A stretch of DNA of 64,000 nucleotides, taken from positions 1 to 64,000 of the IMG/VR virus record IMGVR_UViG_3300022833_000005; one strand, written 5' to 3'. This DNA comes from a virus. The notes beneath the pieces are model-generated. The model was given only the letters and a program-made list of their open reading frames with translations, made no database searches and was not told where the DNA came from. Made by a program: the position numbers and the translations under genes. Below, one piece after another: positions 365 through 26,266 of the stretch; position 1 is the stretch's first letter, and the number at the start of each line of letters is the position of its first letter.

Positions 365-1082
365 ATCTCTAAAATGTTTCCGTTACTACTTAATCTACCA
401 AACTTACCATCAGTTACTACAGAACCATTACTAAAAATAGTATCTTGTCTTGATAACTTTACAGTACCAGCATTGATTATATCATCATTATTATGAATAT
501 GTCCAAAGCATACCAGTTTTAAGTTAGGTAGGTTTAGTACTCTTTTCTTTAAAGCATTACATCCACAAAATTCTAATTCATGGTTTCTACTATAAGATAA
601 ATCCAAGATTCCTTTTGGTGGACCGTGCACCACTACAATATCAGTATCATCAGGGATAGTTTGCCACACTTTATCTAATTTAAATCTTTGTTTCATAAAA
701 GACCAATTGCCAAAAGAAGGTGTATGAGGACTTCCCCATATTTTCAATCCATTTATCTCCACACTTTCATTCTCTAAGTATATAATATTATATGCCTCAA
801 AGTCATCTTTAGTTACTAATTTAGACTCAATACTTGAATCATGATTACCAGCTACAAATATCTTATGCTCAATAGGTAGTGTTTTAAACCAATGTATGAA
901 GTCTCTTACTTCAGGTTCATTAGTATAAGGAGCTCTAGGGTTAGAACAGTCACCACTAAAGATGACCATATCTATTCCTTCAGGTATTTCTAATAATTTG
1001 TGATATGTGTGAGTTACGTATCCGAGAAATGCCAAACACGAAGCTTAGCTTTTCCCGGAGTAGTTGTTTTTATATTTTTCAT
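361..1082 (-). pseudogene. Calcineurin-like metallophosphoesterase, frameshifted in its first metal-binding motif
   Basis: The long frame (stop at 361) carries three calcineurin-type phosphoesterase motifs: SGDCSN, GNHD and GHIH, plus VHGPP. It has no ATG near its 5' end and could only start at a TTG at 1035, which would omit the first motif. In another frame an ATG at 1082 gives MKNIKTTTPGKAKLRVW, then HFSDT, then TAA at 1014-1016. Removing the five bases GTAAC (plus-strand 1013-1017) joins SDT to HTYHKLL and restores the canonical SDTH motif. The gene therefore looks like a once-intact protein of about 240 residues inactivated by a small insertion. Its start overlaps the 3' end of the homing-endonuclease gene. 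A translated, N-truncated product remains possible but would lack metal ligands. Confidence 0.7.
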
Positions 1083-1770
1083 ATTCTTTTACTATTTGTT
1101 TATTAAATGACTCTGTATATCCTGGATAGTTTGTCTTAGGCATGTATTTATAGTTTTTGAACTCTTTTTTAAAGTTATTTTCTATATCATACGCTTCTCT
1201 TCCTGGTATTTTTATATTGTTAATAATTTTATATTTATAATTAAATTTATGTAATTGACTAAATCTTCTACTTATTTCAAACTTTGTTAACCCTACTTTA
1301 AAAAAAGACTCATTATCATTATAAATATTTATTAAATAAAAATTAACGACACTATTTAAATATAGATTAAATACTCTGTCCTTGCTAAATCCACATTTTT
1401 TTGATTTTGAAATATTTGATTTATTTATATCAATACAGGTTATTTTAGAAACATCATGACCTTGAAGAAGGTCATACAATACAGCATGATATGTAAACCC
1501 TTTGTGTTTTATTATAGATTTACCCTTTATTCCGCCATACTTTATAAGAGTATATTTTTCTTTTAAATTATTTAATTTAATTTGCATATATTCTACTTTA
1601 TTTACAGCAGACTCTATTCCAATTTTAAAATTTAATGCTCTATATATATTATTTTTACTATGTAAAATATTATTTTCATCATAAAAATATAATATAGAAT
1701 AATTATTAATAAAATTTACAACTCTATATTTAGGATGTTTTTTATAAAACTCTATAATTTTTTCATTCAT
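1045..1770 (-). CDS. GIY-YIG-like free-standing homing endonuclease (putative)
   Basis: The C-terminal half (from about residue 140) has FYLINIYN, then FFKVGLTKFEISRRF, a Glu in AYDIENNFKKEF, and a closing YPGYTESF. This arrangement resembles the degenerate GIY-YIG/T5orf172-type endonucleases common as free-standing mobile genes in phages. The N-terminal 130 residues are Lys/Ile/Asn-rich and I do not recognise them. The gene is more AT-rich than its neighbours, and its 3' end overlaps the start of the broken metallophosphoesterase by 38 nt, as expected for a mobile endonuclease beside its target. Family placement is inferred from motif spacing only. Confidence 0.55.
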   Translation of the reverse strand: MNEKIIEFYKKHPKYRVVNFINNYSILYFYDENNILHSKNNIYRALNFKIGIESAVNKVEYMQIKLNNLKEKYTLIKYGGIKGKSIIKHKGFTYHAVLYDLLQGHDVSKITCIDINKSNISKSKKCGFSKDRVFNLYLNSVVNFYLINIYNDNESFFKVGLTKFEISRRFSQLHKFNYKYKIINNIKIPGREAYDIENNFKKEFKNYKYMPKTNYPGYTESFNKQIVKEYEKYKNNYSGKS

Positions 1771-3544: not shown

Positions 3545-3742
3545 TTATAAATTTTTTAACTCTGTTATAACTTTTTTAAAATAAGGAATTTCAATTTCTG
3601 CGTTTAATTCGTAACCTTTTTCAGCTGTAATAATTAATTCTTTTACACATATTAAAGCGCATTTTTTAGCAGCATTTACTCCAATTTCTGATCCTCTGTA
3701 AAATTTTTCTATTAATTCCCTTGCTTTTTCTTTTGGTTTCAT
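3545..3742 (-). CDS. Conserved small phage protein (65 aa)
   Basis: The pattern KPKEKARELIEKF, AAKKCALICVKELI and a closing YFKKVITELKNL is familiar from many phages of Bacteroidetes, where it has no assigned function. The protein is probably all helical. Its ATG overlaps the upstream stop (ATGA), so it is coupled to the 78-aa gene. Confidence 0.7.
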   Translation of the reverse strand: MKPKEKARELIEKFYRGSEIGVNAAKKCALICVKELIITAEKGYELNAEIEIPYFKKVITELKNL

Positions 3743-3975
3743 ACCTCTTCTATTTTATTAATCACATCATCTTTTATAGATGAAAGTTGTGTAAACGATA
3801 ACTCTTCAAATATATCTTGTGAATCACACATTACATATTCTATATTAAACTCTGATGGTGCTCCTGGATAACCTGAACCATCACCATGATAAGATTCTTC
3901 AGCTTCAGCTTCTATATATTCTCCTCCTACAACTAATATAAGAGTGTTCCATTTTATTTCAATTTCTTGTGTCAT
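3739..3975 (-). CDS. Small acidic hypothetical protein (78 aa)
   Basis: The protein is acidic and has a mid-region GDGSGYPGAPSEFNIEYV that I have the impression of seeing in other phage proteins, without a function. It overlaps the end of the lipoprotein candidate upstream by 17 nt and is coupled by ATGA to the 65-aa gene downstream. Confidence 0.65.
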   Translation of the reverse strand: MTQEIEIKWNTLILVVGGEYIEAEAEESYHGDGSGYPGAPSEFNIEYVMCDSQDIFEELSFTQLSSIKDDVINKIEEV

Positions 3976-4357
3976 GTTTGTTTAAAGATATAATTACGTT
4001 ATTCCACTTACCACCTTTCATACTAGTATTAACAAGAAAATCAATTCTATGTTTAAACCTTCTGTTCATTCTGTCATATACAGTCCAGATACCATTCATT
4101 TCACCTGCATTCTCAACACAAACTTTAGCACCAAATATAAATCCTAAAGGTTCTAAGTCTCTTGACACTGCTATCCATCTATGTCCAGCAGGATTATCTT
4201 TATTGATTCTCTTGTTTGATGCTGTTATAAATGGTGTACTGTCTGTTTGAGCAGGAACTGCGTGATAGATTGTTGCTACCACGTTACATTCTTCACTATC
4301 CTCACAAGAAACTGGAAGTAAGGATAATAAAGAATACATTATTATGTTTAGATTCAT
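3959..4357 (-). CDS. Secreted 3D/RlpA-like double-psi barrel protein, lipoprotein candidate
   Basis: The first 18 residues (MNLNIIMYSLLSLLPVSC) form a short hydrophobic signal ending in a lipobox-like LPVSC, so the product is probably exported and lipid-anchored. The body has ATIYHAVPAQTDSTPFIT, then RWIAVSRDL, VCVENAGEMNGIWTVYDRM and a closing Asp in HRIDFLV, the arrangement of 3D/RlpA-type double-psi beta barrels linked to peptidoglycan cleavage or binding. It could weaken the cell wall at lysis or alter the infected cell's envelope. It is ATGA-coupled to the DUF6165-like gene upstream. I am fairly sure of the fold and unsure of the role. Confidence 0.6.
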   Translation of the reverse strand: MNLNIIMYSLLSLLPVSCEDSEECNVVATIYHAVPAQTDSTPFITASNKRINKDNPAGHRWIAVSRDLEPLGFIFGAKVCVENAGEMNGIWTVYDRMNRRFKHRIDFLVNTSMKGGKWNNVIISLNKHDTRN

Positions 4358-4956: not shown

Positions 4957-5231
4957 GTGCTTAGTTTTATATTTAGTTTATCTTGTTGTAATAAAATATG
5001 TCTATACTTAACATCAATTTCTTTTTGATGCATTTCAACTTTATCTCTTTGTATCTGTTGATGATGTATCATTAAAACACCTTCTTTAGATGCTTTAATT
5101 GTTGTCAAAGCTAATCTATTTATTGTAGATGCTTTAACTATTGATATTTTATCATCTTTAACTAGTTTAATAAGTTCAGTTAAATCTTCAGCTAATACAT
5201 TATTTATCTCCATGTTCTTTTGTACGTCCAT
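4953..5231 (-). CDS. Hypothetical helical protein (92 aa)
   Basis: The sequence has LTELIKLVKDDKISIVKAST and NRLALTTIKASKEG, then a long charged helix with Gln/His residues (HHQQIQRDKVEMHQKEI) likely to form a coiled coil. It resembles small phage proteins thought to bind nucleic acid, but no motif proves this. The gene overlaps the end of the HNH-like gene upstream by 32 nt in a different frame. Confidence 0.55.
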   Translation of the reverse strand: MDVQKNMEINNVLAEDLTELIKLVKDDKISIVKASTINRLALTTIKASKEGVLMIHHQQIQRDKVEMHQKEIDVKYRHILLQQDKLNIKLST

Positions 5232-5700
5232 CTTTTATCTTTTTTAGTTCTCTGTATAATATCATTTGTTGTCTTTTACTTGCTTCTAAATGTTCATTTA
5301 AATATATTAAAGGCATATTAAGCAATTGCCCTATATAACATCTGTGTAAACTATCTCTATTTTTTCTATATGATTTATCATTATGTATTTTATTTATTTC
5401 AGGATTTAATTTTTTCCATCTTTTAACAAAAAATACATTACTTTTCCTTACACAATTATTACATTTATGAATTCTTTTTTTATTTAAATCTATTTTATTA
5501 GTAGATTTTTTATTACATATAGGACAAATTGTATATCCAAAATATTTTATTAATAATAAATGAGAACTAATATCTATTCTTTTTCCTTTAAGTGTTGTTT
5601 GTCTACAAGTCAACAATTTATTTAATTTATTATTAATAACAACACCATCTTCTCTAATAGAATACCGCTTATTAGTATCTTTAATAAATAGCTGTTTCAC
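5200..5700 (-). CDS. HNH-like homing endonuclease (putative), GTG start
   Basis: The N-terminus (RYSIREDGVVINNKLNKLL) matches the NUMOD-like strand seen at the start of phage HNH endonucleases. A CPICNKK...HKCNNC zinc site follows. The C-terminus (CYIGQLLNMP, then HLEASKRQQMILYRELK) is the helical DNA-contact module that ends many phage HNH proteins. A clean HNH triad is not obvious, so activity is uncertain. Translation starts at GTG, fixed by the leader AATCAAATAGAATT, a close relative of the operon leader. It is the second mobile-endonuclease-like gene in this operon. Confidence 0.5.
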   Translation of the reverse strand: MKQLFIKDTNKRYSIREDGVVINNKLNKLLTCRQTTLKGKRIDISSHLLLIKYFGYTICPICNKKSTNKIDLNKKRIHKCNNCVRKSNVFFVKRWKKLNPEINKIHNDKSYRKNRDSLHRCYIGQLLNMPLIYLNEHLEASKRQQMILYRELKKIKDGRTKEHGDK

Positions 5701-8393: not shown

Positions 8394-8852
8394 ATGGAAA
8401 ATAGAAAAATAGTTGTTCAAACTCTACAGAAGGTATTAGATGATGAGTATGCAATTGCTGAGAAATATTATTCTATCCTATCAGTAATCAATAATCTTGG
8501 TCTTACTAAAAGAGAAGTTGAATTAGTAGCTTACACTGCAGTGAATGGAACAATATCTTATGCTAACAGAAGAGCTGAGTTTTGTGAGAAGTACAAAACA
8601 ACATCAGCTACAATTAGTAACTTGATATGTAGTCTTAAGAAAATTGGATTGTTTATAAAAAAATCAGGTAAGATAAAGGTGAATCCTATAATTGTCTTAG
8701 ATTTCAAAAAAAATTTAAACTTAGTTATAAAGATAGTGCACAATGATGAAAGTGAAGAAATTGACATTGAAGGATCAGTTATTGAGGAAAATGTCAACAA
8801 AACTAGTGATATCAGAGAAGGTATTGAGTCAAGTGATAACACATCAGTTTGA
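8394..8852 (+). CDS. HTH DNA-binding protein, crAss-like conserved regulator
   Basis: Residues about 40-90 (LTKREVELVAYTAVNG, then EFCEKYKTTSATISNLICSL and KKIGLFIKK) form a typical winged-helix/HTH region; TSATISNLICSLKKIG is the recognition-helix segment. The C-terminal 50 residues are acidic and probably disordered. A protein of this type heads the late block in crAss-like genomes I recall, just before the IHF-like gene. It overlaps the next gene by about 110 nt in another frame. It probably regulates late transcription or takes part in packaging; no direct evidence separates these. Confidence 0.7.
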   Translation: MENRKIVVQTLQKVLDDEYAIAEKYYSILSVINNLGLTKREVELVAYTAVNGTISYANRRAEFCEKYKTTSATISNLICSLKKIGLFIKKSGKIKVNPIIVLDFKKNLNLVIKIVHNDESEEIDIEGSVIEENVNKTSDIREGIESSDNTSV

Positions 8853-19869: not shown

Positions 19870-21000
19870 ATGGCTGATTTTTCATTAACCACGTTATTCG
19901 TGGTTCCAGTAGGGCAGACTGCTCTCCCTAGCACTGGTTCGACACAAGATCTTACCGCAGGTCAAGTAGGATTTTTTAAAAGCGATTATGCTGTAGCAAC
20001 TTCTGCTAACATTGCTGCTTCACCTTACTTCTACGTTGCACAAGGTAGGACAAATACTTACTTACAAGGATCTAAAAGATCTGACAAAATTGCAGGGTGT
20101 CCTTCGGGAGCTGGCTGTAAGTCAAACGTAACTGAATGGTACAAAGTATCAGGATGTTCAACTGCATCTAATCAAATTACTGACGTATCTGACTTCACTG
20201 TACAGTGTGGTGATGTTTTAACTTTAACGTTAAGAGCTCACTCTTCTTACATTGATACTCTTTATTTCAATGGATTTACCAGATCAGTAACTATACAAGC
20301 TCCATGTTGTGAATGTGGTGGTGATGTATGTACTGATGTAGACGCTAATGCACTAATTAATCAATTAATTGTTAAATTAGAACAACAAGCTCCTGGAAAT
20401 AATCCAGACAATGTTTCATTTAACTCTTTCTTTACATTTGAGAATGTAGGTGGTACTAAATTACGTATCCATGGAAAACCATTAACTAAATATGGACAAG
20501 CATGTGATGTTGCTGCTTTCCCTTTTGAGTATGATAGAATGCACTTCAGTACTTTCATCTACGATGGACCTGCTACAACTGCTGACTTTATTGTTGCTGA
20601 TGCATGTAACCTAGTAGCTGCACCTGTTGTTATTCAAATAGCATCTTATGCTTCTGGAGGATCTGAAGAATTTGCACAATTAGAGAAAAACTTCTATAGC
20701 TACCAAGCTGGATATTTAAAATCTCTATATAGAATGGGTGGATACAATGAGAACTTTGAGTCTTGGGTAACTGCTGGAACAACTTATGATAGTTATTACA
20801 TTAAATTTAATACCTATGATAAATCTGCTTATACTTGGGGTGACTTCATTCATGAAGATGCAACTGTAATTCTTGCTGTGCCAAATGCTGATACAAGTGG
20901 TATCGCTGTATTAGTACAAGCTGTATTAGTAGCTGGATTAGGAGCTGTTGTTGATAACAATGCTTGTATTACAACTACAACTACAACTACTGCTCCATAA
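19870..21000 (+). CDS. Abundant virion structural protein with Thr-rich tail (auxiliary capsid candidate)
   Basis: The 376-aa protein is beta-rich, with paired cysteines (GCPSGAGCKSN; PCCECGGDVC) and no motif of an enzyme. Codon use matches the capsid gene, so it is probably made in large amounts. The last residues are CITTTTTTTAP, a short form of the Thr linkers that join fibre domains elsewhere in this genome, here ending in nothing. A decoration or auxiliary capsid role fits its expression and place; this is inference. A strong terminator follows. Confidence 0.65.
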   Translation: MADFSLTTLFVVPVGQTALPSTGSTQDLTAGQVGFFKSDYAVATSANIAASPYFYVAQGRTNTYLQGSKRSDKIAGCPSGAGCKSNVTEWYKVSGCSTASNQITDVSDFTVQCGDVLTLTLRAHSSYIDTLYFNGFTRSVTIQAPCCECGGDVCTDVDANALINQLIVKLEQQAPGNNPDNVSFNSFFTFENVGGTKLRIHGKPLTKYGQACDVAAFPFEYDRMHFSTFIYDGPATTADFIVADACNLVAAPVVIQIASYASGGSEEFAQLEKNFYSYQAGYLKSLYRMGGYNENFESWVTAGTTYDSYYIKFNTYDKSAYTWGDFIHEDATVILAVPNADTSGIAVLVQAVLVAGLGAVVDNNACITTTTTTTAP

Positions 21001-21043
21001 TTATAGCATGTTGTAGGTAGACAATAATAATAAACATAAACCT

Positions 21044-21091
21044 ATGCCAGAGGAGAGGATTAAATCTCACATCCTCTGGCATTTTTTTTTT
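21044..21091 (+). terminator. Strong rho-independent terminator
   Basis: ATGCCAGAGGA (21044-21054) pairs perfectly with TCCTCTGGCAT (21072-21082), followed by a run of Ts to 21091. It closes the head/neck transcription unit and isolates the fibre cassette that begins at 21103. Confidence 0.9.
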
Positions 21092-21102
21092 AAAATAATA
21101 TC

Positions 21103-21669
21103 ATGGCAGTCACTTTACAATTAGATATATTACTCCCTCCTACTTATAGTGTATTGTTGCTTTCTGTTACGGATGCTTCTATCTACCCAAATAGTCCTCC
21201 AATAGTATCAGCACCAACAATCGAAATAACAGTACCAAATTTTGGTACTAAGATTTTACCTTTTGTACCATTACAAACAAATGTATTTGGATCTGACACA
21301 TTAGGAATAACTGAAGTTGGATGTAAACAAGATTTACCCGATGGTATATATCATATAAAATATTCTATTGCACCAGCATATCTAAATTATGTAGAAAAGA
21401 CTATATTACGTGTTGACAGACTTCAAGAAAAGTTTGACAATGCGTTCTTAAATTTAGATTTAATGGAATGTGATAGTGCATTAAAAACACAAGCTAGTGT
21501 AAATTTAAATACTATAAGTTTTTTAATAGCAGGAGCAATTGCTTCAGCAAATAACTGTGCAGAAGAGGATGCGTTAAAATTATATCAACAGGCAAGTACA
21601 ATGATTGATCAATTCTTAAAGTCAAATTGTGGTTGTTCAGGAAATAACTATGTGTTAAACTTTAGATAA
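21103..21669 (+). CDS. Structural protein with C-terminal CxC pair (188 aa)
   Basis: The protein begins with a beta sandwich-like half (LDILLPPTYSVLLLSVTD; DLPDGIYHIKYSIAP) and ends in a helical half closed by NCAEEDALKLYQQ and CGCSGNN. This two-part arrangement recurs next to small Cys-rich genes in phages of environmental Bacteroidetes, as far as I recall. The role is likely in the tail or fibre base. The next gene starts two bases after the stop. Confidence 0.65.
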   Translation: MAVTLQLDILLPPTYSVLLLSVTDASIYPNSPPIVSAPTIEITVPNFGTKILPFVPLQTNVFGSDTLGITEVGCKQDLPDGIYHIKYSIAPAYLNYVEKTILRVDRLQEKFDNAFLNLDLMECDSALKTQASVNLNTISFLIAGAIASANNCAEEDALKLYQQASTMIDQFLKSNCGCSGNNYVLNFR

Positions 21670-23587: not shown

Positions 23588-24355
23588 ATGACAGTAATAC
23601 TAACATTATCTTCTGCAGGAACTGACGTTTCATTATTTGATTTATACTCAGATATTGATAGTTATAGTATTGCCTTTGAAACTGGAGTTTCTAAAGCAGC
23701 TTTAATTGCTGGTTATACAACTTCAGCATGCCCAGACTATGCAACTATTGTAAGAGTTCAAGCTACAGGACAATGTGTTAATTACATGGATATAATATTA
23801 TCACAAACAACAACTACTACTACATCTAGTACAAGTACTACTACTAGTACAAGTACAAGTACAAGTACAAGTACTACTACTAGTACTACTACTAGTACAA
23901 GTAGTACTACTACTACAACAACAACAGCTACACCAACAACTACAACCACAACAACAACTCAAGCACCAACAACTACAACCACAACAACAGCTGCACTACT
24001 ATGTCAATTAAATGGACCTAGTGCTGTTTTTTATTCACCACCAACAACAACTACCACTACCACTACCACTATACCCCTTGATAATAGTATTAGATCGTCT
24101 AGTGCTATAGCAAGTGGATATTGTAATTCAACACTTGATACTTTTTGTTTTGTAGAACAACAAAATGTAAATGTAATAACTATAGGTGATAGAATTTGGA
24201 ATGATGCATTTTATCAAAATTATATGGTGGGAACAAGCACTGCTCAAAATTTAATAAAATATCATATTGAACTAAGTAATTTAAGTGGGTTTGGTGTAGG
24301 AGTAAATTCTACTGGATATGTAATAAACCAAACATCAATATGTTATGTACCTTAA
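23588..24355 (+). CDS. Fibre protein with long Thr/Ser linker
   Basis: Residues 1-75 form a small beta domain (LTLSSAGTDVSLFDLYSDID ... CVNYMDIIL) shared with three other genes. A linker of about 55 Thr/Ser residues follows, then a short segment, a second Thr linker and a C-terminal domain of about 90 residues (SGYCNSTLDTFCFVEQ; GFGVGVNSTGYVINQTS). The build is that of a flexible stalk carrying a tip domain. The repeat DNA of the linker is likely to vary in length. Confidence 0.7.
   Translation: MTVILTLSSAGTDVSLFDLYSDIDSYSIAFETGVSKAALIAGYTTSACPDYATIVRVQATGQCVNYMDIILSQTTTTTTSSTSTTTSTSTSTSTSTTTSTTTSTSSTTTTTTTATPTTTTTTTTQAPTTTTTTTAALLCQLNGPSAVFYSPPTTTTTTTTTIPLDNSIRSSSAIASGYCNSTLDTFCFVEQQNVNVITIGDRIWNDAFYQNYMVGTSTAQNLIKYHIELSNLSGFGVGVNSTGYVINQTSICYVP
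23808..23992 (+). repeat. Low-complexity Thr/Ser codon repeat
   Basis: The linker is built from ACT, ACA and AGT codons, including ACAAGT hexamers in tandem near 23839-23868 and ACTACTACTAGT blocks. Similar tracts occur at 24038-24072, 33082-33145, 33580-33602, 33800-33855 and at gene ends 20970 and 22098. Such DNA promotes slippage and recombination between fibre genes. Confidence 0.8.
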
Positions 24356-25027: not shown

Positions 25028-26266
25028 ATGTCGTATAACCAAGAATTACTTGATAAATTACAAGGACTTTTAGCATGGAAAAAAAGTAAAACATTTTATG
25101 CTGCTAAGTTAGAAATAACTGAAAATGAAGTATTAGCATTACTCAAAGAATTAAAAAATAAGAATAAAGATGAAGGTGAAGAATTTTTAAAATCTGCAAA
25201 AAACTTTAAATCTTATGACACTTTAACAAAAGTTAATGTAGAAAAAGGAACAGTTGAGAGTACAATAACTTTAGATTTTGAACCTAAGAATGAAGTTGAG
25301 TTAGCAGAATTACATAAAATAGATTTAAATACTTATACTATTACAAACTATTGGTCTAAATTACTTCCAAGTGGAAACTTTACATCATCAGTATTTTCAA
25401 AGAGAAAAACACCCAAGGATTATAGTGCTGAAGACTTTAGCAACTTCCTTAAAAATTACAAATCAAATTACATTCCAATAGATGCTCCAATAAGATCTGA
25501 TAAACAATTAGTAGATATTGAACTATCTCTTTCTGATTATCATTTAGCAAAGAAAGATGTTAATGGAGATAATGATCCAATTAATAGAGCTGTAAGATTT
25601 TTCACTATTGCTCAGAACTTAATTAATAAGACAAGATCTATTTATGATATAAATAGAGTTATATTACCTATATCTAATGATTATTTTCATACAGATAACT
25701 ATCAAAATCAAACTACAAACGGTACACCTCAAGATGTTATAATGGAGTATTCATCAGAATACGAACTTGGTTTTGCTATTTTAATAGACACTATTAAAAT
25801 GTTAAAAGCAAATACTAATCAAGTAGAGGTAATATTAGTACCAGGTAACCATGATAGAACAAAAGGTTTTTATCTAGCACACGCATTAGATATATATTTC
25901 TCTGCAGATAGTGATGTTACTTTTAAAAGAGATGATAGTTTAATAAAAGGAGTGTTACTTGGTGAAACATTTATTGGTTATCATCATGGTAATTGTAAAA
26001 TAGAATCATTGCCTTTATTATTTGCAACTCATCCTTTATATAGTGAGATGTTTGGTAGAGCTAAATATAGAGAAGTTCACACAGGTGATAAACATCACTA
26101 TATGGCTAAAGAAATAAAAGGTGTAAGAATACAACAAATGCCTAGCTTATCTGCAACAGATAGATGGCATAGAGATAACAATTTTGTACATAGTGTACGA
26201 GCAGCATTAGCTTTAGTCTATGATTTTAAAGTGGGCAAAGTGGCTGAATTTGAAGAAAGAATATAA
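25028..26266 (+). CDS. HTH plus metallophosphoesterase protein
   Basis: The first 50 residues (SYNQELLDKLQGLLAWKKSK ... EVLALLKELK) look like a small helical HTH region. From about residue 165 come the calcineurin-type motifs LSDYHLAKKD, ISNDYFHTDN, PGNHDRTKG, GYHHGN and HTGDKHH, all with their metal ligands. Proteins of this build occur in tailed phages of several hosts without a proven substrate; nuclease or phosphodiesterase action on DNA ends is likely. Unlike the leftward homologue at 361-1082, this one is intact. It sits unexpectedly among neck and tail genes. Confidence 0.8.
   Translation: MSYNQELLDKLQGLLAWKKSKTFYAAKLEITENEVLALLKELKNKNKDEGEEFLKSAKNFKSYDTLTKVNVEKGTVESTITLDFEPKNEVELAELHKIDLNTYTITNYWSKLLPSGNFTSSVFSKRKTPKDYSAEDFSNFLKNYKSNYIPIDAPIRSDKQLVDIELSLSDYHLAKKDVNGDNDPINRAVRFFTIAQNLINKTRSIYDINRVILPISNDYFHTDNYQNQTTNGTPQDVIMEYSSEYELGFAILIDTIKMLKANTNQVEVILVPGNHDRTKGFYLAHALDIYFSADSDVTFKRDDSLIKGVLLGETFIGYHHGNCKIESLPLLFATHPLYSEMFGRAKYREVHTGDKHHYMAKEIKGVRIQQMPSLSATDRWHRDNNFVHSVRAALALVYDFKVGKVAEFEERI

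Follow-up and report, generated by a model that had tools for sequence, protein, structure and literature searches.

A homing-type endonuclease cassette is inserted in a metallophosphoesterase gene of a crAss-like phage, within the first metal-binding motif (D-x-H) of the enzyme, and at its 3′ end it carries a re-encoded N-terminus for the gene that it interrupts. The sequence analysed is a stretch of 64,000 nucleotides (positions 1 to 64,000 of IMG/VR record IMGVR_UViG_3300022833_000005, hereafter the window), in which genes for CrAss ring and muzzle proteins, terminase, portal and major head are found. Five extra bases that include a stop codon lie between the replacement N-terminus and the body of the enzyme, and a strong hairpin precedes them. 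From the comparisons described below we consider it likely that the cassette brings its own repair of the gene, namely a homing insertion, a replacement N-terminus and a probable 5-nt hop that keeps the enzyme made. We also lean slightly towards a more specific reading, namely a family of phage homing cassettes in which the hairpin would drive the 5-nt hop over the stop, so that the host gene is kept working while the element's own cutting site is altered.

A homing-type endonuclease cassette splits the phosphoesterase gene

All features of the locus lie on the minus strand. Upstream of the endonuclease stands the original beginning of the phosphoesterase gene, ATGAAAATATGGCACATTGGGGATACT (MKIWHIGDT, 1825-1799), which, start codon (ATG 1825) included, had been missed in the first-pass annotation. 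It matches the uninterrupted start of L002, L007, L037 and other relatives, its last resident codon is the ACT at 1799, and as an orphaned reading frame (1825-1790) it runs into a stop within the insert. Since this resident start stands upstream of the endonuclease, the endonuclease has been inserted inside the phosphoesterase gene. The order in the window is thus ATGAAAATATGGCACATTGGGGATACT, an insert of about 787 nt (1798-1012, the ends being uncertain by a few bases) and CACACATATCAC. The intact relative L002 reads ATGAAAATATGGCACATAAGTGATACT followed directly by CACACGTACCACAAATTATTAG, and the cassette is missing likewise from L003, L006 and L007. The insertion point falls between D-T and H of the D-x-H motif, that is, between GDT and HTYH.

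The endonuclease gene (1770-1045, 241 aa) is of the T5orf172/GIY-YIG type (PF10544, 23.9 bits against a cut-off of 20) and matches the phrog_681 endonuclease. Its 3′ end overlaps the ATG at 1082-1080, from which the replacement N-terminus MKNIKTTTPGKAKLRVWHFSDT is encoded (1082-1017) up to a TAA at 1016-1014. The RVWHFSDT within this piece is a second N-terminus, re-encoded in the 3′-terminal part of the insert. The N-terminal frame is separated by five extra bases, GTAAC (1017-1013), from that of the body (HTYHKLLEIPEG), which restarts in a different frame at CAC 1011 and runs to 361 (HTYHKLL onwards, 216 aa). The body is a calcineurin-like metallophosphoesterase (PF00149, E 4e-12) related to the MPPED2 structures 3rl3-3rl5 (search query L071), and the GD, GNHD and GHIH motifs are conserved in the phosphoesterase alignment. 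The first-pass annotation had described a break by GTAAC in the SDTH metal motif next to a mobile endonuclease; both the break, read directly in the sequence, and its link to the adjoining endonuclease are borne out.

The junction recurs in four further viral contigs

The SDT-GTAAC-H junction was found in four more viral contigs (L026, L028, L072 and L191), a degree of sharing that is well beyond chance. The pattern LRVWHFSDT led to L026 and L028, which carry a nearly identical 76 nt including GTAAC and have no endonuclease upstream. Among 160 further relatives (80 viral and 80 from genomes) the locus is uninterrupted in 159, the sole exception being L072, in which the same GTAAC occurs in a different phosphoesterase lineage, again with no endonuclease. 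A further pattern scan gave L191, which repeats the whole architecture of the window: an old start (MKILHISDTHS), an endonuclease, a tail beginning ATGAAC and ending CTCCGAGAGAGTAGGATGAAAATCTTACACCTCTCGGATACGTAACCCATAG, and then the body. At the other end of the L191 contig lies an empty allele, CACACAG followed directly by TTTTCATG, whose flanks are shared with the occupied allele. The two ends of this one assembled contig (L199 and L200 of IMGVR_UViG_3300046787_000302) carry the occupied and the empty allele of the same site, which suggests that both alleles are present in one sampled population. The window, L026 and L028 have near-identical tails and are taken as a single lineage, which leaves two independent ones.

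A sequencing or assembly error as the origin of GTAAC is ruled out by the agreement of five separate contigs. Nor does the recurrence support the repair scar proposed in the first-pass annotation, a local change in a gene that had died, given that the identical five bases, the hairpin and the rewritten N-terminus recur in five contigs and two lineages. Relatives with the same frame and no endonuclease, which that annotation had itself set against the scar, make up three of the five (L026, L028 and L072). L026 has a further frame change right after the junction (around 8435-8465 of the reverse complement), which is either a sequencing error or, under the hop model, the mark of a decayed or dead gene. 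The junction was not found in 399 genomes of the family around a Flavobacterium metagenome-assembled genome, searches for the tail in annotated phages gave chance matches only, and a search for the hairpin-plus-junction pattern in other genes returned 44 matches, 40 of them chance-like.

The L191 endonuclease (around 300 aa) is homologous to that of the window, with 28% identity over its length (E 8e-30), and scores slightly under the Pfam cut-off. T5orf172 is present in the records of the window and L191 only, and in none of those of L026, L028, L071 and L072. The endonuclease site is empty in L002, L003, L006, L007 and L071, as well as on the L191 contig itself. No close relatives of the window endonuclease were found in the viral contigs or the annotated phages searched, and the search with the L191 endonuclease gave one distant match apart from itself. 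The enzyme is of a homing type and may be active in homing, in which the empty site is cut and the cassette spreads by repair. Elsewhere in the window, a 166-aa ORF at 5200-5700 (minus strand) with CPIC/CNNC cysteine pairs matches phrog_32828 (function not annotated) and is possibly another mobile nuclease.

An endonuclease that interrupts a gene at a conserved motif resembles the intron-borne endonucleases, and a self-splicing intron has to be considered for this reason. We regard it as very improbable. There is no Rfam intron match, the approximately 30 nt on each side of the ORF are too little for a ribozyme core, the 5′ boundaries differ (GATACT in the window vs GACACACACAG in L191), and the 3′ tail is found with no upstream exon in L026, L028 and L072.

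The tail behaves as a replacement for the interrupted coding sequence

The counterpart of MKNIKTTTPGKAKLRVWHFSDT in L072 and L191 is MNNSKQ[NK]LRESRMKILHLSDT, and the leader peptide (21-22 residues) is rich in lysine and arginine. In L191 the resident and cassette starts can be compared over nine codons, in which 10 of the 27 bases differ and eight of the nine amino acids are kept. Furthermore, the tail encodes W-H where the enzymes of its lineage have W-H, and L-H where they have L-H. The tail ATG of L072 occupies the position of the native ATG in its sister L071, and that of L026 follows directly on a 165-aa upstream gene, as does the native ATG in L037. These are cases in which the endonuclease is gone and the tail start is at the native position, as expected if the tail is a working start. 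The tail behaves as one unit that takes the place of the coding sequence interrupted by the cassette, and the phosphoesterase gene is therefore probably recoded rather than lost. L037 also has tandem phosphoesterase copies (around 1970-2648 and 3670-4350), each after the end of the same upstream gene.

The bodies are under purifying selection, with dN/dS of 0.09-0.22 in the comparisons of the window, L028 and L072 and about 0.09-0.2 for the window body against most relatives, although this selection may partly predate the insertion. A cassette that simply kills the phosphoesterase, with the stop tolerated since the enzyme is dispensable and the tail left as a co-conversion remnant of another phage's gene, would account for the additional frame change of L026 and for ordinary translation offering no in-frame route to the metal motif. 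We judge it unlikely, as two lineages with endonucleases of only 28% identity have both conserved the hairpin and GTAAC, the re-encoded N-terminus keeps its amino acids, the endonuclease-free alleles retain the tail start codon at the native start, and the bodies of the window, L028 and L072 are still open. A second phosphoesterase at 25028 had been put forward in the first-pass annotation as making the loss tolerable. It is of a different family (phrog_704, DNA repair exonuclease) and lies among virion genes, and so provides no obvious backup.

A stable hairpin is conserved upstream of the junction

Folding of the 45 nt before the ACG codon of the junction gave -21.9 kcal/mol for the window, -21.4 for L028, -21.3 for L026 and -20.7 for both L072 and L191. 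The same place in 76 distinct intact genes has a mean of -2.1 kcal/mol, the most stable among those listed being -6.9 kcal/mol. Only three of 2000 synonymous randomisations of the window tail folded as well, and none of 2000 for L072 or L191. The window hairpin is the most stable among 25,582 sampled 45-nt stretches of the window, and none of the other sites in the window that resemble a stop-hop, 74 in all with this one, has a strong hairpin (-21.9 kcal/mol here, the next being -12.0). Comparably stable hairpins are found at 21041-21085, between one ORF that ends at 21000 and another that starts at 21103, where they are possibly a terminator, and elsewhere only at 23910 (minus strand).

The hairpin (1059-1021) has two parts, of 9 bp and 7 bp in the window. 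The lower stem (8-9 bp across the two lineages) has a 3′ strand that ends one base before ACG, and is followed by an internal loop of 1-2 nt; the upper stem has 7 bp and closes a loop of 4-5 nt, its 3′ strand occupying in both lineages the stretch from 18 to 12 nt ahead of ACG. MAFFT displaces the 5′ strand of the hairpin between the lineages, so changes in pairing were counted on the two folded structures. Five pairs have changed on both sides and several on one side, and no compared pair is broken. Between the window and L028 there are two differences within the stems, both synonymous and with pairing retained.

Alternatively, the hairpin could have a role in DNA recognition, or could couple translation to that of the endonuclease gene. 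The stop codon of the endonuclease is within the upper 5′ strand in the window (1045-1047) and L191 (129-131), and the endonuclease frame is that of the phosphoesterase body in both (body at 1011 and 97, respectively). These features, together with a TTG in the body frame of the window and L028, would suit a scheme in which hairpin and junction work on the DNA or in regulation (recognition, immunity or coupling), with translation beginning at a later start and giving an enzyme without the first motif. L072 and L191, however, have no body-frame ATG, GTG or TTG ahead of the first Met codons, which lie downstream of the motif, and therefore a later-start enzyme would be missing the Asp in any case. 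The hairpin and the SDT coding also persist where the endonuclease is gone, and we give this scheme little credence. The TTG at 1035 of the window was rejected as an alternative start of the enzyme; it is in frame and comes without the metal-binding Asp, and L072 and L191 have no such codon.

A 5-nt hop would restore the metal motif

Ordinary translation from the tail ATG stops at the UAA. In all five cases the two parts of the reading frame are out of frame with one another, and the gap between them has a stop adjoining the proposed take-off codon. The sequence ACG-TAA-C is retained in five out of five, with ACT or ACC as the landing codon. In the window the take-off ACG is at 1019-1017, the skipped bases TAACT are at 1016-1012 and the landing ACT is at 1014-1012. 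Take-off and landing codons match in their first two bases and in the amino acid (Thr), and differ in the third base. A hop of 5 nt from ACG to ACU or ACC yields exactly SDTH, and it is only the hop that restores D-x-H exactly. An alternative genetic code was rejected, as a sense TAA would leave the frame unrestored.

A -1 frameshift near the UAA is permitted by the frame arithmetic, the -1 frame being open across the junction in the window, L028, L072 and L191, and would add two residues (SDT-Val-Thr-His). No slippery heptamer is present, however, and the two residues would go into a D-x-H motif that is conserved across relatives, spoiling its spacing. Furthermore, a 5′ hairpin is the arrangement of gene 60 bypassing and is reported to favour forward shifts (PMC5009743). 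We consider recoding by such a frameshift improbable.

The 5-nt hop could proceed as follows. The endonuclease cassette inserts in the phosphoesterase gene within the D-x-H metal motif, and its 3′ end supplies a rewritten N-terminus, complete with start codon and reaching as far as the insertion point. As the cassette carries this start codon and N-terminal copy, translation can begin there, and as the copy is joined to the body via five extra bases, the N-terminal frame reads ACG-UAA. The strong hairpin would refold behind a ribosome arriving at ACG; with ACG in the P site, general ribosome geometry would put the upper stem near the exit channel. Refolding would probably pull the mRNA, so that the peptidyl-tRNA-Thr leaves ACG and pairs again with ACU or ACC five bases downstream, bypassing the stop and giving a normal enzyme that contains SDTH. 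A gap of 5 nt leaves little room for a gap hairpin. The changed codons and the five bases would probably also stop the endonuclease from cutting its own carrier; protection of the site by the five bases, already proposed in the first-pass annotation, is plausible.

Comparison with known systems

To our knowledge, efficient programmed bypassing in bacteria and phages has so far had essentially one natural case, T4 gene 60, which left nothing to compare it with in asking which of its signals are general. The present locus resembles T4 gene 60/MobA in that a homing endonuclease splits a phage gene, the stop of a non-coding gap directly adjoins the take-off codon, and a 5′ stem-loop stands immediately upstream of take-off. 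In gene 60 the stop directly follows the take-off codon and the 5′ stem-loop, part of which forms outside the mRNA exit channel, has been proposed to pull the mRNA while zipping (PMC5009743); the gap has also been suggested as protection from the endonuclease (PMC5009743, PMC3014915). The gene 60 gap is 50 nt whereas here it is 5 nt, and the identical take-off and landing codons of gene 60 (GGA/GGA) are replaced here by the non-identical ACG and ACY. MobA is an HNH endonuclease, in contrast to the T5orf172/GIY-YIG enzyme here. Unlike that of T4, the present cassette carries a re-encoded N-terminus, making a complete protein possible from its own start, and it is found in two lineages and in a different gene. 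We place it as a variant of the gene 60 type of cassette and as a candidate member of programmed bypassing.

In fungal mitochondrial mobile ORFs (Allomyces and Glomus; atp6, cox2, nad3 and atp9) the insert likewise brings a diverged, largely synonymous copy of the displaced part of the host gene and the resident copy is orphaned (PMC3630166). There the C-terminus is replaced in frame, whereas here it is the N-terminus, out of frame and with a hairpin and a stop. The window case thus appears to combine a T4-type mechanism and a fungal-type architecture in a crAss-like phage. A short gap in a phage gene is suspected elsewhere of being bypassed (PMC5009743). That gap is tied to the UUA codon and to host regulation, with neither an endonuclease cassette nor a hairpin of the present kind mentioned in the review. 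Stop-hops in synthetic E. coli reporters (PMC5009743) also rely on codons flanking a stop that allow re-pairing a few bases downstream; those codons are perfectly matched and span 9 nt, with no natural cassette.

If the hop takes place, the locus would give programmed bypassing a second natural form, one that is recurrent and minimal, and would show how a selfish endonuclease can occupy the codons for an enzyme's active site and yet leave the enzyme functional, by way of the re-encoded N-terminus. The endonuclease-bearing, endonuclease-free and empty alleles would then offer a comparison. The two diverged lineages share a shape (hairpin, take-off, stop and landing) while their sequences differ, so that general signals become comparable, and the very short gap makes the mechanism easy to test.

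Another endonuclease is found beside the same phosphoesterase gene in the cultured Flavobacterium phage elemoA_7-9A (MT497017.1), where an HNH endonuclease gene (3126-3722 of L243) overlaps the 3′ end. The phosphoesterase product of this phage is longer than in its sister phages, and the arrangement may be a C-terminal counterpart of the cassette.
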